NCBI GenBank assembly: GCA_022562855.1
Contig: JADFON010000087.1
Coordinates: forward strand, 1 to 7,267
DNA from: Candidatus Zhuqueibacterota bacterium
Lineage (GTDB): Bacteria > SM23-31
Reading direction: 5' to 3'
Length of the DNA stretch: 7,267 nt
Under the pieces are notes generated by a model. It was given only the letters and a program-made list of their open reading frames with translations, had not been told where the DNA came from and made no database searches. Shown here piece after piece: positions 531-7,267 of this stretch (positions within the stretch are counted from its first letter, which is position 1; the number at the start of each line of letters is the position of its first letter). The position numbers and the translations under genes were made by a program.

Positions 531-539
531 GTGCCCGGA
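444..539 (-). pseudogene. Possible C-terminal remnant of an unidentified protein
   Basis: This minus-strand frame is bounded by TAA codons on both sides and encodes 31 residues, ending VNITHDAIEDLLEEKELIATLSL-like (a charged amphipathic helix with a short hydrophobic tail). It has no usable start codon in its first half, so if it was ever coding it is only the end of a gene. Its upstream end coincides within a few bases with the point where the plus-strand permease homology begins (about 531), as expected at a deletion or recombination joint. At this length, chance cannot be excluded. Confidence 0.2.
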
Positions 540-782
540 TTACTCAGTCTTGTTTCCAAAAATATATTGATATTAGTCGTTACCGCAAATTTGTTCGCAT
601 GGCCCGTTGCATACGTGGTAATGAACAACTGGCTTCAAGGATTTGCTTTCAGGGTGGATATTAGTTTGAATGTATTTATAATCTCAGGATTATCTGCCTT
701 TTTTATTGCAGCAGTAACAATCAGTTTTCAAACCATAAAAGCGGCTACAAAGAATCCTGTTGAAACACTGAGATACGAGTAG
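531..782 (+). pseudogene. C-terminal remnant of a MacB/FtsX-type ABC transporter permease
   Basis: Intact members of this family are inner-membrane permeases of about 400 residues (MacB, LolCE) or 800 residues (two-repeat type), which act with a separate or fused ATPase on lipoproteins, peptides or drugs. Only the last 83 codons remain. They contain the typical penultimate membrane helix and amphipathic segment (ANLFAWPVAYVVMNNWLQGF), then FRVDIS, the last transmembrane helix (about residues 48-66) and the family-typical end, IKAATKNPVETLRYE. The first codon of the homologous stretch is GTG at 531, where family members read ...GASV. Two codons upstream is an in-frame TAA (525-527), and no permease-like sequence is seen in other frames further upstream. 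The fragment is therefore truncated rather than simply frameshifted. It lacks the large periplasmic domain and the first membrane helix and is very unlikely to transport anything. Confidence 0.8.
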
Positions 783-2621: not shown

Positions 2622-3650
2622 ATGGATTTTTCGAAAAGATGGATTTTTGCCTCCCTGGTATTTCACGCAATTTTAATCGTTGCTTTGAGATTCACTTATT
2701 TAACCATACCGCCCGCAGAATATATACCCCGTTTATCAATTGAAATAATTGACTCCCCCGAAGAAATAATCGAGAAACCTTCCCCTGCTGTCTCGGAAGA
2801 TATTCAGAATTCTATACAGAATGATTTAGAAAATATTATTGAATCAGAGGTTTTTCCTGAAAATCTCGATAGATCTGTCGAGATTGAAAAATTTGTCGTT
2901 CCGGATGATATTATGTTCGTTAAAAAAGAAGTTGATTCGATAAGAATTGAAATGGACCGGCTGCGAAAGTATTATGCTGAAAACAAGGTTGTTCCGTTCG
3001 AATCAAGATTCAGAGAACTTCTTGACATGGAACCTATAACGTTTGTGCCTGATGTAACACCCAAAAAGCCCATGAGCCTCCGGGATTCACTGCAGAATAT
3101 TGTCTCGAACAGCCGGTTATTGCAATTTAATCTTGACGATTATGCGGTATTAAACGACATTGTAGCAGACGAGTACAATTCAAAATACACAAATCCAACG
3201 TTTCCTGTAGTCCCCCTTATATTGCAGGGATTATCGTTAGCGGGAAAGCTCTTTTCAAAGATTTTTAATGTTGATACTCCCGAAGAAACAAACAGGTTTT
3301 TGACCGTTATCGAAATCCGGTTAATGAAAGTAGTCTGGAAGCAAAAGGAAATAGCGCCATCGGAACTTTACGCACAATTACCTGTAGATATTCCTTTGAC
3401 AATGATAGATGTACTCGGTCATCTTGAGCAATTACATTTAAAAAGAATACTTAAAAAGAGAAAAAAATCAACAAAAGAAGTGTTTTATCCGGTAATTAGC
3501 AGGAAAGATTTGTTCGCTTTTTACCTTGCAGTTTACACTGAAAGTCTGCACGAATCCAATACCGGTGATACGAACGGAAGCGCCGGAATGTTGTTGACTG
3601 ATCTTAAGGACAAACTAATCTTATTGAGTTCTGATGATATTAAACATTAA
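2622..3650 (+). CDS. Membrane-anchored protein: TonB-like N-terminus, acidic linker, BlaI/MecI-type winged helix
   Basis: This 342-residue protein is not from a family I can name as a whole. A TonB-like anchor is seen at residues 5-29 (KRWIFASLVFHAILIVAL), followed by the short PxxxIPRLSIEIID stretch usual after TonB/TolA-type anchors. Next come an acidic, proline-bearing linker (about 44-95), a helical part with coiled-coil character (about 98-135), and an uncharacterised middle region (about 136-215). At 227-297 lies a stretch matching the penicillinase-repressor winged helix: FLT-x2-EIRLMKVVWKQ, IAPSELYAQLP, a recognition-helix region LTMIDVLGHLEQLHLKRILKK and wing VFYPVISRKDL. BlaI-type repressors are normally soluble proteins of about 125 residues. 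By the positive-inside rule (K5, R6 before the helix, acidic after), the C-terminus should be periplasmic, which conflicts with DNA binding. Possibilities are inverted topology, proteolytic release, or a winged helix used for protein contact. The start lacks a Shine-Dalgarno sequence, but no other ATG is available. The stop lies 26 bases from the convergent DUF4139 stop. Confidence 0.75.
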   Translation: MDFSKRWIFASLVFHAILIVALRFTYLTIPPAEYIPRLSIEIIDSPEEIIEKPSPAVSEDIQNSIQNDLENIIESEVFPENLDRSVEIEKFVVPDDIMFVKKEVDSIRIEMDRLRKYYAENKVVPFESRFRELLDMEPITFVPDVTPKKPMSLRDSLQNIVSNSRLLQFNLDDYAVLNDIVADEYNSKYTNPTFPVVPLILQGLSLAGKLFSKIFNVDTPEETNRFLTVIEIRLMKVVWKQKEIAPSELYAQLPVDIPLTMIDVLGHLEQLHLKRILKKRKKSTKEVFYPVISRKDLFAFYLAVYTESLHESNTGDTNGSAGMLLTDLKDKLILLSSDDIKH

Positions 3651-3676: not shown

Positions 3677-5029
3677 TCAATTTATCCGAACGGTATAATT
3701 GATCGTTATTTTTGATTCGGGCGGGATCGTTACGATAAATTCTGCGGTTCTCGAATCGGGCATTGTGTAATCTTCTGAACTGGTAATTATTCGCCATTCA
3801 CCATAAAAGTGTTCGTTAACTACAACTTCTTTTTCTTCATTGCTTCCGTTTTCCAGTTCAATTTGGTATACTTCTTCGCGTATGCGGTCGGTAATCCGTC
3901 TGAACTGTTTCTGAGTCCTTGTTCCGGTGATATCGAACGCAACGCCGATCCGAATGGTGACTAAGCCGTTCAGCGGCGTATCTTGTAAGTTGTCTTCACC
4001 AAGAAAAATAGACCCTGAATCGCCGGACTCGAATATTCTCACTGTCCCCGAAGGTAATGGCTCTCCTGTACCTGAATTCCTGTCATTTGTAAACATCAAT
4101 ACATTCATTACCTTGTCACCGAAACGGTTTACATCAAATATAAACTTCTGATCTACGCTGATAAGTCTATCCGGGAAGAGACGTACCTGGCGTTCACTCC
4201 TGTTTTCAAGATTCAATTCCTGGTCTAATGAAAACTTATGAAAAATATGGACATTTTCTACTTGAAACGCCATTGACTGCTCTGCCGCTTTCATAGACAG
4301 ACGGGGCTGCGCATATTCGATTCCCCCCGTGGCGGCGCGATGCGGCTCACCCGCAATTAAAATCACTTTATCGTTTTCGATCCTGCTCCCTGAATTATTC
4401 CTTATACGTGCGCGCGACTTGAGCAGCAGTTCTCCCCTAGTCGGATTGTACATACCGACATATTCTCCCGACCATCCGATATTGTTAACAAGGTAATGCA
4501 GCCTGATAATATCCCTGACCGTATTAGAAGAAGCAACGGTAAGGTGCAGCCGGGGACTAAATGGTGCAATATTTGTTATACCTTCTATTGTGTAATCCTG
4601 GATTCGGTTTCTGTTAATCGAGGTGAATGAGCCGCCATTCCTTAGAATTATCTCATTGCCGTTGAACCCGTAATATGTTCCCGTTATGCTTTGGTTGTCC
4701 ATTAGTGTAAGGCGGATAATACTTCCCCGGTAATCATTCAATATTTCGTTAAAATTGAATACTCTCGAATCAAACTGCTGCTGCAGGATCTCTACTCCCC
4801 CGCTTGTCCTGTCGACAAAAATAGTCTCCGTCTGTATCTGCATAGGCAGGTTTGATATCAGGTAGGAATGTGTCCCCGGTTCGAACTGCATTTCCCTGGA
4901 ATCGATTACATAGGCAAAGGAATTGTAAATCACATATTCTCTTTCAGAGTTTTGGAAACCGGCAGCGGACGTGACAGAAACCGTCAATAAACTCGTCAAC
5001 GCTAAAAAAGCAATTAATTTGATTTTCAT
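3677..5029 (-). CDS. Exported DUF4139 domain-containing protein
   Basis: A 450-residue protein with a clear signal peptide (MKIK then a hydrophobic core, likely cleaved after ...VTSAA near residue 23), so it is probably periplasmic or surface-exposed. The mature protein begins with the family-typical YVIYNSFAYVIDSREMQFEPG (about 32-52). A small beta-rich segment follows (about 99-147, RGSIIRLTLMDNQSITGTYYG), the usual insert between the N-terminal part and the DUF4139 core. The core shows HYLVNNIGWSGEYVG (178-192), NNSGSRIENDKVILIAGEP (211-229), PSGTVRIFESGDSGSIFLGED (326-346), VAFDITGTR (363-371) and a C-terminal immunoglobulin-like strand set ending ITINYTVRI. The biochemical role of DUF4139 is unknown. 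Length and order are normal for the family, with no truncation. Its ATG (5029-5027) overlaps the valS TGA as ATGA, implying co-transcription and translational coupling with the synthetase gene. No terminator is visible in the 26-base gap to the convergent gene. Confidence 0.85.
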   Translation of the reverse strand: MKIKLIAFLALTSLLTVSVTSAAGFQNSEREYVIYNSFAYVIDSREMQFEPGTHSYLISNLPMQIQTETIFVDRTSGGVEILQQQFDSRVFNFNEILNDYRGSIIRLTLMDNQSITGTYYGFNGNEIILRNGGSFTSINRNRIQDYTIEGITNIAPFSPRLHLTVASSNTVRDIIRLHYLVNNIGWSGEYVGMYNPTRGELLLKSRARIRNNSGSRIENDKVILIAGEPHRAATGGIEYAQPRLSMKAAEQSMAFQVENVHIFHKFSLDQELNLENRSERQVRLFPDRLISVDQKFIFDVNRFGDKVMNVLMFTNDRNSGTGEPLPSGTVRIFESGDSGSIFLGEDNLQDTPLNGLVTIRIGVAFDITGTRTQKQFRRITDRIREEVYQIELENGSNEEKEVVVNEHFYGEWRIITSSEDYTMPDSRTAEFIVTIPPESKITINYTVRIN

Positions 5030-7267
5030 GATAGTTCCAATGAATTTAAGTTATTTTGAATCGTATTCATGTTATTTGTAAATGTCTTTAATTTTTCTCT
5101 TTCACGTTCGATAACATGAGCGGGAGCTTTACCGAGGAAATCCTTATTAGATATTTTTTGGTTAACTGTAATGATCTGTTTTTGCAGACGAGTTACTTCT
5201 TTACTCAATCTATCGTGCTCGGAATTTATATCTATTAAATCAGCCAACGGCACATATAGTTCCATACCCGCAACCACCGCCGTAGCCGATTGTGGGGGTT
5301 TATCCACTGAAGGACCCGTTTTTATATTGTCAATTCTTCCAAGCCTGTATAAATAATCGAGGTTTTTGTTTATGATTTCAAGCTGATTCTTGTCGCCGCA
5401 TTTTATCAAAAGATTCGCTTTTTCCGCAGGTGGAATGTTCATCTCTCCTCTAATATTTCTAACTGAATAAATAATATCCTGCACAAGCCCCATTTCTTTT
5501 TCGCTTTCGATGTCTACCAGTTCTTTTGAAAACTCACCCGGAGAGGTAATCATGACAGACTCATTTTCATCAGGACTAATTAACTGCCATATCTCCTCAG
5601 TAATAAACGGCATAAACGGGTGGAGAAGTTCCATCGTCTTTTTGAATACCGGCAATCCGACATTCAGCAATGATTGAGATGCCGACTCAAAATCAGCATC
5701 CATCCTGTCTTTTAAGATTTCAAGATACCAATCACAGTAATCGTGCCACACAAAAGTATACAAGGCATTTAATGCCTCATTGAGCTTATAATCGGAGAAT
5801 TTCTTATCGACAATATTCCGTGTAGAATTAAGTCTGCTGACAAGCCAGCGGTCGGACAGATCCCGGCTTTCAAAACTCCCGGATACCTCGACCCCCTTTG
5901 CTTTGACCTCGGATTCCTTGATCTTAAGGAATCTAAACGCATTCCATATTTTATTGGTAAAATTTCGACCCATTTCAAATTTTTGCTGCGATAGTTTTAT
6001 GTCCTGCCCATCGGTATTCAGCGCTATCATACAGTATCTTACCGAGTCCGCGCCATATAAATCTACCATTTCTACCGGGTCAATACCATTGCCGAGTGAT
6101 TTCGACATTATTCTGCCTTGTTCATCCTTGATCATTCCGGTAAGATAGACAACGCTGAAAGGTTTTTCACCGGTAAACCACAATCCAGCCATAATCATAC
6201 GCGCTATCCAGAAAAATAATATCTCATAACCGGAAACAAGGACGGAAGTTGGATAAAAATAATCGAGATCTTTGGTTTTTTTTGGCCAATCCAGCGTGGA
6301 AAACGGCCACAACCAGGATGAAAACCACGTATCGAGAACATCTTCGTCCTGACGTATATCTGTCGAATCGCAGTGACTGCATTTCGTCGGATCTTCTGTG
6401 GAAACGGTTATCTCTCCACAAGACCCGCAGTACCATACGGGCAGCCGGTGCCCCCACCATAACTGACGCGATATACACCAATCGCGGATGTTATCCATCC
6501 AGAATTGGAAATCCTTTTCCCATTTTTTCGGATAGAAAACAATTTCGCCATCTTTTACCGCCTTACTCGCCTTTTCCGCTAATGGAGCCATTTTTAAAAA
6601 CCACTGGTCTGAAAGTAACGGCTCAATTGTATTTGAACAGCGGTAGCATTTGCCGACCTTATTTGTATAGTCTTCTGTCTTTTCAAGAAATCCCTGCTTA
6701 TCGAGTTCGGCTACCAGTTTCTTCCTGCATTCAAAACGGTCAAGTCCGGCAAACAGCGGACCTGCCTCGGACGTCATTTTGCCCGCCTCATCGATGACTA
6801 TCACATTCGGAAGTTTGTGCCTTTGACCCATTAAAAAGTCGTTTGCGTCGTGTGCCGGGGTTACTTTCACAGCGCCGGTGCCAAATTTCCTGTCGACAAA
6901 ATCGTCCGCTATGACGGGTAATTCCCTGTCAAGTATTGGAAGTTTGATCTTCTTGCCGATAAATTTCTTATACCTTTTATCTTTTGGATTCACCGCTACC
7001 GCCGTATCTCCAAGCATTGTTTCGGGTCTGGTTGTGGCAACGGTGATTGATTCATCGCTTCCGTCCAGGAAATATTTGATATACCAGAGTGAACCCTGGG
7101 TTTCCACATGTTTTACTTCTTCGTCGGAAAGTGCAGTCATGTGAAAGGGACACCAGTTGACAATATATTTCCCCTTATATATCAAACCTTGTTCATAAAG
7201 GGTAACAAATACTTTACGAACAGCCTGGGACAAACCTTCGTCCATGGTAAAACGTTCACGTTTCCAA
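5026..7267 (-). CDS. valS: Valyl-tRNA synthetase, C-terminal about 746 codons (5' end outside the window)
   Basis: A class I aminoacyl-tRNA synthetase that charges tRNA-Val with valine in the cytosol and edits misactivated threonine. The frame is open to the right edge, reading WKRERFT before the methionine at 7245, so that methionine is internal. The HIGH motif and about 130-140 N-terminal residues are missing from the window. Numbering from that methionine: CP1 editing domain about 50-185 with TTRPETMLGDTAVAVNP (71-87) and GTGAVKVTPAHDANDF (122-137); Zn-ribbon cysteines C200/C203 and C273/C276 with C289/C292; WCISRQLWWGHRLPVW (256-271); and the DVLDTWFSS and GYEILFFWIARM catalytic-domain motifs. 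The KMSKS loop is IMSKS (379-383). The anticodon-binding helical domain follows (about 465-600), and the ValS-specific C-terminal coiled coil at about 670-735 ends LNSLELS. The TGA overlaps the start of the DUF4139 gene. The promoter is out of view. Only the first KMSKS lysine is unusual; all else is normal. Confidence 0.97.
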   Translation of the reverse strand, partial: WKRERFTMDEGLSQAVRKVFVTLYEQGLIYKGKYIVNWCPFHMTALSDEEVKHVETQGSLWYIKYFLDGSDESITVATTRPETMLGDTAVAVNPKDKRYKKFIGKKIKLPILDRELPVIADDFVDRKFGTGAVKVTPAHDANDFLMGQRHKLPNVIVIDEAGKMTSEAGPLFAGLDRFECRKKLVAELDKQGFLEKTEDYTNKVGKCYRCSNTIEPLLSDQWFLKMAPLAEKASKAVKDGEIVFYPKKWEKDFQFWMDNIRDWCISRQLWWGHRLPVWYCGSCGEITVSTEDPTKCSHCDSTDIRQDEDVLDTWFSSWLWPFSTLDWPKKTKDLDYFYPTSVLVSGYEILFFWIARMIMAGLWFTGEKPFSVVYLTGMIKDEQGRIMSKSLGNGIDPVEMVDLYGADSVRYCMIALNTDGQDIKLSQQKFEMGRNFTNKIWNAFRFLKIKESEVKAKGVEVSGSFESRDLSDRWLVSRLNSTRNIVDKKFSDYKLNEALNALYTFVWHDYCDWYLEILKDRMDADFESASQSLLNVGLPVFKKTMELLHPFMPFITEEIWQLISPDENESVMITSPGEFSKELVDIESEKEMGLVQDIIYSVRNIRGEMNIPPAEKANLLIKCGDKNQLEIINKNLDYLYRLGRIDNIKTGPSVDKPPQSATAVVAGMELYVPLADLIDINSEHDRLSKEVTRLQKQIITVNQKISNKDFLGKAPAHVIEREREKLKTFTNNMNTIQNNLNSLELS

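Follow-up and report, generated by a model that had tools for sequence, protein, structure and literature searches.

What does a DNA-binding fold of the repressor type do at the end of a protein that begins like TonB? The question is raised by a gene in the window, i.e., the whole 7,267-nt stretch of DNA analysed here, which comes from a fragmented, 80%-complete draft genome of a Candidatus Zhuqueibacterota bacterium. A first-pass annotation described the gene product as an uninterrupted chain joining a TonB-like membrane anchor to a BlaI-type winged helix, and proposed that it was a one-component membrane regulator. The frame does run unbroken from an ATG start through 342 codons, and four further genera have full-length orthologues that are 24-35% identical to the window protein. 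Features of the window are as follows, with those inside the fused protein given as predicted.

1285-2355, + strand: K+ channel (Ion_trans_2, TrkA_N and TrkA_C domains)
2622..3650, + strand: whole fused gene, 342 aa (TonB/TolA-type anchor, linker/middle region, BlaI-type winged helix, C-terminal helices)
2640..2708, + strand: N-terminal membrane helix, residues about 7-29
2652..2666, + strand: Ser11-X3-His15, the portion of the SHLS motif that binds the motor; after X6 it is followed by the Leu of the motif (Leu22)
2709..3191, + strand: linker/middle region, residues 30-190, the first part proline-rich and charged
2730..2753, + strand: RLSIEIID, following the membrane helix; a possible "motor box" beta strand, assigned by inspecting sequence and position
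3198..3266, + strand: conserved amphipathic helix PVVPLILQGLSLAGKLFSKIF, about residues 193-215 (196-215 in the AF2 model)
3279..3497, + strand: BlaI/CopY-type winged helix, residues about 220-292 (Pfam match 228-299, i.e., 3303-3518)
3402..3440, + strand: recognition-helix position, residues 261-273 (AF2 helix 261-273), most of the BlaI TTVxT...R residues absent
3501..3629, + strand: two C-terminal helices, residues 294-313 and 319-336 (AF2), in the position of the BlaI dimerisation helices, without Pfam match
3677-5029, - strand: DUF4139-like protein (weak DUF4139/DUF4140 matches, both below the Pfam cut-off)
5026-7266, - strand: valyl-tRNA synthetase

The N-terminal anchor and membrane topology

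The TonB-like character that had been ascribed to the N-terminus was borne out. Residues 7-25 average 1.95 on the Kyte-Doolittle scale, the sole segment of the window protein above 1.6, and the full-length AF2 model (mean pLDDT 46; reliable for the anchor and the winged helix only) places a helix at residues 3-28, with pLDDT 72-83 over residues 1-20. K5, S11 and H15 are invariant across the five orthologues. It is through the first Ser and the His of the SHLS motif (S-X3-H-X6-L-X3-S) that TonB and TolA contact ExbB/TolQ, as seen by cryo-EM (PMC12215075). By inspection, the Leu of this motif is kept in four of the five fused proteins and the complete motif in one (G003). Of 113 ORFs in the fetched loci whose N-terminus is hydrophobic, 22 carry SxxxH: the fused five plus 17 that are TonB/TolA-like, several of the latter adjoining motor genes. 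The set is not random, since the loci were chosen for TonB, ExbB, BlaI or M56 matches. When the fused N-terminus was aligned by hhalign to 15 TonB/TolA-like N-termini, the score was 32.2 (probability 93.5%), above all 200 column-shuffled controls (maximum 25.7, median 11.9). A TonB N-terminus HMM run on 461 ORFs ranked two fused proteins among the transducers (E 1.5e-5 and 6e-4); two of the five fused N-termini scored near chance, and that of the window protein fell below the HMM's list. Judged by motif and profile comparison, the anchor of the fused protein is of the TonB/TolA type. The segment RLSIEIID is a candidate for the motor box described in force transducers (PMC12204202). None of the five fused proteins matched TonB_C, TonB_2 or TolA domains at E <= 1, PF03965 being found instead.

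Behind the anchor, residues 1-189 gave no Pfam match, the Pro content over residues 30-96 varies from 9 to 28% within the family, and AF2 confidence in the linker/middle region is mostly below 50 (pLDDT). The first-pass annotation had placed the winged helix in the periplasm from the pattern of flanking charges. That argument proved weak, as the counts are nearly balanced (two K/R before the membrane helix and one to three in the 15 residues after it; G003 has eight in the 30 residues after), but the placement itself is still the likelier one: a Ser-X3-His anchor implies that the N-terminus is inside and the C-terminus periplasmic, a topology that would follow from homology of the anchor only.

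A membrane-anchored one-component regulator, in which a cytoplasmic winged helix would bind DNA while the N-terminal or middle region senses the envelope, would have either the opposite orientation (N-out/C-in) or a second membrane pass at residues 193-215. The flanking charges, leaving topology undecided, are compatible with it, as is the helix at 193-215, with a Kyte-Doolittle value of up to 1.39 and lysines at its C-terminus. The anchor is nevertheless N-in by homology, and the second helix is amphipathic (helical moment 1.19) and too polar on the Hessa scale: in the three members in which no other later segment does better, it sums to about +8 to +10, compared with -1.3 to +1.6 for the N-terminal helix. 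Since hydropathy is about 1.4 or less and insertion strongly unfavourable for such an amphipathic segment, a second membrane pass is unlikely.

The winged helix and its recognition position

The winged helix that the annotation had recognised was confirmed. PF03965 (Penicillinase_R) matches residues 228-299 of the window protein at E 1.1e-6 (29.4 bits; cut-off 22.6) and matches all five fused orthologues, and a profile of the orthologues searched against solved chains finds CopR/BlaI/MecI at 6e-11, 1.6e-8 and 3.7e-3. A predicted structure lacking this fold, or homologues carrying the two parts as separate genes, had been named as grounds for rejecting the annotation; the AF2 model of residues 190-342, built from three sequences, contains a helix-helix-helix-strand-strand fold with a two-stranded wing (pLDDT about 76-87), and in the homologues both parts lie in one gene. 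With this model as query, the suggested Foldseek search returned MecI/BlaI as top matches (E 2.5e-3, prob 1.00). Structural alignment to MecI by VIA-align gave a Z of 10.4 with an rmsd of 2.2 A over 83 residues, and since unrelated winged helices, LmrR for example, reach the same Z, the BlaI family assignment rests on sequence; on that basis the BlaI-type winged helix is real. The PF03965 match ends at profile position 65-80 of 115 in the fused proteins versus 1-115 in ordinary BlaI; as to the dimerisation/cleavage region of a full repressor, two helices follow the winged helix in the model.

Binding of TACA/TGTA operator DNA is a trait of the BlaI/MecI/CopY repressors, and in BlaI/MecI it is the TTVxT...R residues that contact the operator. 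In the fused proteins the positions of the hydrophobic core are conserved, as is the Lys that follows the recognition helix. The T47-equivalent is found in none of the five, compared with 28 of 32 ordinary BlaI proteins; the two residues of the TT pair in 0/5 and 1/5 (ordinary BlaI, 24/32 and 27/32); and the recognition-helix Arg in one (ordinary BlaI, 19/32). From this loss we infer that the fused winged helix may no longer bind DNA. A repurposed fold was one of three options that the annotation had offered for a periplasmic winged helix, and it is the one favoured by the general absence of these residues. Four of the fused winged helices have retained a positive net charge (+3 to +7), so that a degree of DNA binding may persist, and that of G001 is negative (-3); charge does not separate fused from ordinary BlaI.

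These results weigh on the regulator as well. In CadC and ToxR the winged helix is N-terminal and cytoplasmic. These one-component regulators (PMC5430869) combine a winged helix with a single membrane helix in the same chain, as the fused protein does, and lend the regulator a precedent; the preserved winged-helix core and the mostly positive charge also speak for it. In the fused protein, by contrast, the winged helix is C-terminal and follows an anchor predicted to be N-in. Most residues conserved in BlaI recognition helices are gone, and there is no conserved neighbour for a regulator to act on: the search for a common target gene that the annotation had recommended found no neighbour shared among fused-gene contigs except in the closest pair, G004/G005, a weak test on contigs of 3.7-17 kb. 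Thus the annotation's leading reading was not upheld, as the Ser-X3-His anchor and the lost recognition residues fit a transducer or tether better, and we regard a regulator, which is the main rival, as unlikely.

Considerably less probable is a periplasmic DNA-binding tether, in which a motor-linked winged helix would bind extracellular or incoming DNA, e.g., during DNA uptake. Its periplasmic placement would follow from the anchor and the positive charge of four of the five winged helices would suit it, but the missing recognition residues and the negative charge in G001 would not, and competence genes were not recognised among the ORFs inspected beside the fused gene.

Proposed role and relation to known systems

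With modest confidence, we favour a transducer or tether of the inner membrane, TonB/TolA-like and specific to this lineage, in which a BlaI winged helix has been repurposed as the periplasmic end. Its N-terminal helix would lie in the inner membrane with the N-terminus inside, and Ser11/His15 would dock the anchor on an ExbB/TolQ-type motor, the protein being energised by ExbBD/TolQR-type motors. The linker would cross some of the periplasmic space, and a protein partner would be bound by the winged helix together with the C-terminal helices, such that periplasmic protein binding would take the place of DNA binding. Each of the phylum's six genomes encodes both ExbB-family and TonB_C proteins. 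A more specific version, which we put forward tentatively and think somewhat less probable than its contrary, is a PMF-driven envelope transducer with the winged helix pulling or tethering a partner in the periplasm, forming a new TonB/TolA-like class beside the vWA transducers.

The comparison with TonB/TolA is the closest. Common to both are the N-terminal membrane helix with Ser-X3-His (and Leu in four of five fused proteins), a beta-strand-like segment after it, a long linker with proline-rich stretches in several fused members, and motor genes in the genome. The fused protein differs in that its C-terminal domain is a BlaI-type winged helix and that its gene was not seen beside exbBD/tolQR, ExbB/ExbD adjoining it on none of the contigs (3.7-17 kb). 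A foreign C-terminal domain on an SHLS anchor has a published precedent in the vWA force transducers, where it likewise follows an SHLS membrane helix and a linker and replaces the TonB/TolA C-terminus (PMC12204202); the fused protein, in contrast, carries a winged helix, has no adjoining motor or TPR gene that we could see, and was found in one small phylum only. With BlaI/MecI/CopY it shares the winged-helix core, W239, Y250, K274, YxPxxS after the wing, and the match to CopR/BlaI/MecI. It departs from them in being membrane anchored, with about 220 residues in front of the winged helix, in having lost most recognition-helix residues, and in lacking both similarity to the final third of the BlaI model and a nearby M56 partner, the absence of an M56 gene noted by the annotation holding throughout the window. 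By strict membership the fused protein therefore belongs neither to TonB/TolA, whose C-terminal domain it lacks, nor to the BlaI repressors, whose recognition residues and M56 partner it lacks; most likely it works like TonB/TolA and borrows a domain from BlaI. We found no paper on a BlaI-TonB fusion.

We think it probable that the fused product acts in the periplasm as a force or linking protein and that its DNA-binding fold is borrowed, which would be new if confirmed. A DNA-binding repressor fold would then have moved to the periplasm and become attached to PMF motor machinery, and ExbBD/TolQR-type motors might drive a wider range of C-terminal domains. For annotation this would be a warning, since the fused protein has a Pfam "Penicillinase_R" match and yet is probably no transcriptional regulator.

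BlaI and TonB parts also come together in another form in this phylum, as M56-TonB_C proteins adjoining BlaI. There they are separate genes, unlike the fused chain: an ordinary, soluble BlaI is followed by an M56 protease frame with TonB_C domains (G000:C295, L017/L061; G001:C72, L092/L057), and the G001 frame is 1052 aa long with several TonB_C repeats. M56 was detected in three of the six genomes; G003, G004 and G005, all with the fused gene, have none (drafts 70-90% complete), and in G003 and G004 the fused protein is the only PF03965 match.

Family, origin and neighbourhood

Within the small phylum sampled (six genomes), the full-length architecture is present in five of six genera. The sixth genome (G002, 76% complete) is without an orthologue, its best match having an E of 0.2. 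No full-length match was found in about 440 genomes outside the phylum, whether among 380 genomes beyond its own six or in deeper searches of the phyla of G306 and G149, which gave short BlaI proteins only. Two orthologues are also present as cold-seep MAG contigs, found with a two-row alignment; a degenerate-pattern search with the window protein alone as query returned no relative, and the five-row alignment was too divergent for such a search. The five fused winged helices form a single clade against 32 ordinary BlaI proteins (support 97/96), and on the sequences compared the fused architecture has one origin across the five genera. An assembly artefact, two genes joined by chance or a gene in decay might be suspected in so fragmented a genome, but because the full-length architecture recurs in orthologues, stop-free in five genera, with two on cold-seep MAG contigs and all winged helices in one clade, we consider this explanation excluded for practical purposes.

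Some candidates were set aside. Longer BlaI-matching frames in other phyla (G205, G351 and G177) proved to be ordinary BlaI with over-extended frames, and an N-terminal match in G310 was a TonB/TolA-like protein adjoining ExbB/ExbD.

Several features of the surroundings were also recorded. Next to the fused gene and divergent from it, L003 and L009, which belong to the closest pair of relatives, alone encode a large repeat-unit protein, its frame reaching 1571 aa in G004. The window also holds a short frame at 531-782 (+), possibly a remnant, with sub-threshold similarity (E 0.025) to the C-terminus of an FtsX-like permease. Finally, G001 has a distant homologue of the window's K+ channel (21% identity) about 4.2 kb from its fused gene, on the other strand.
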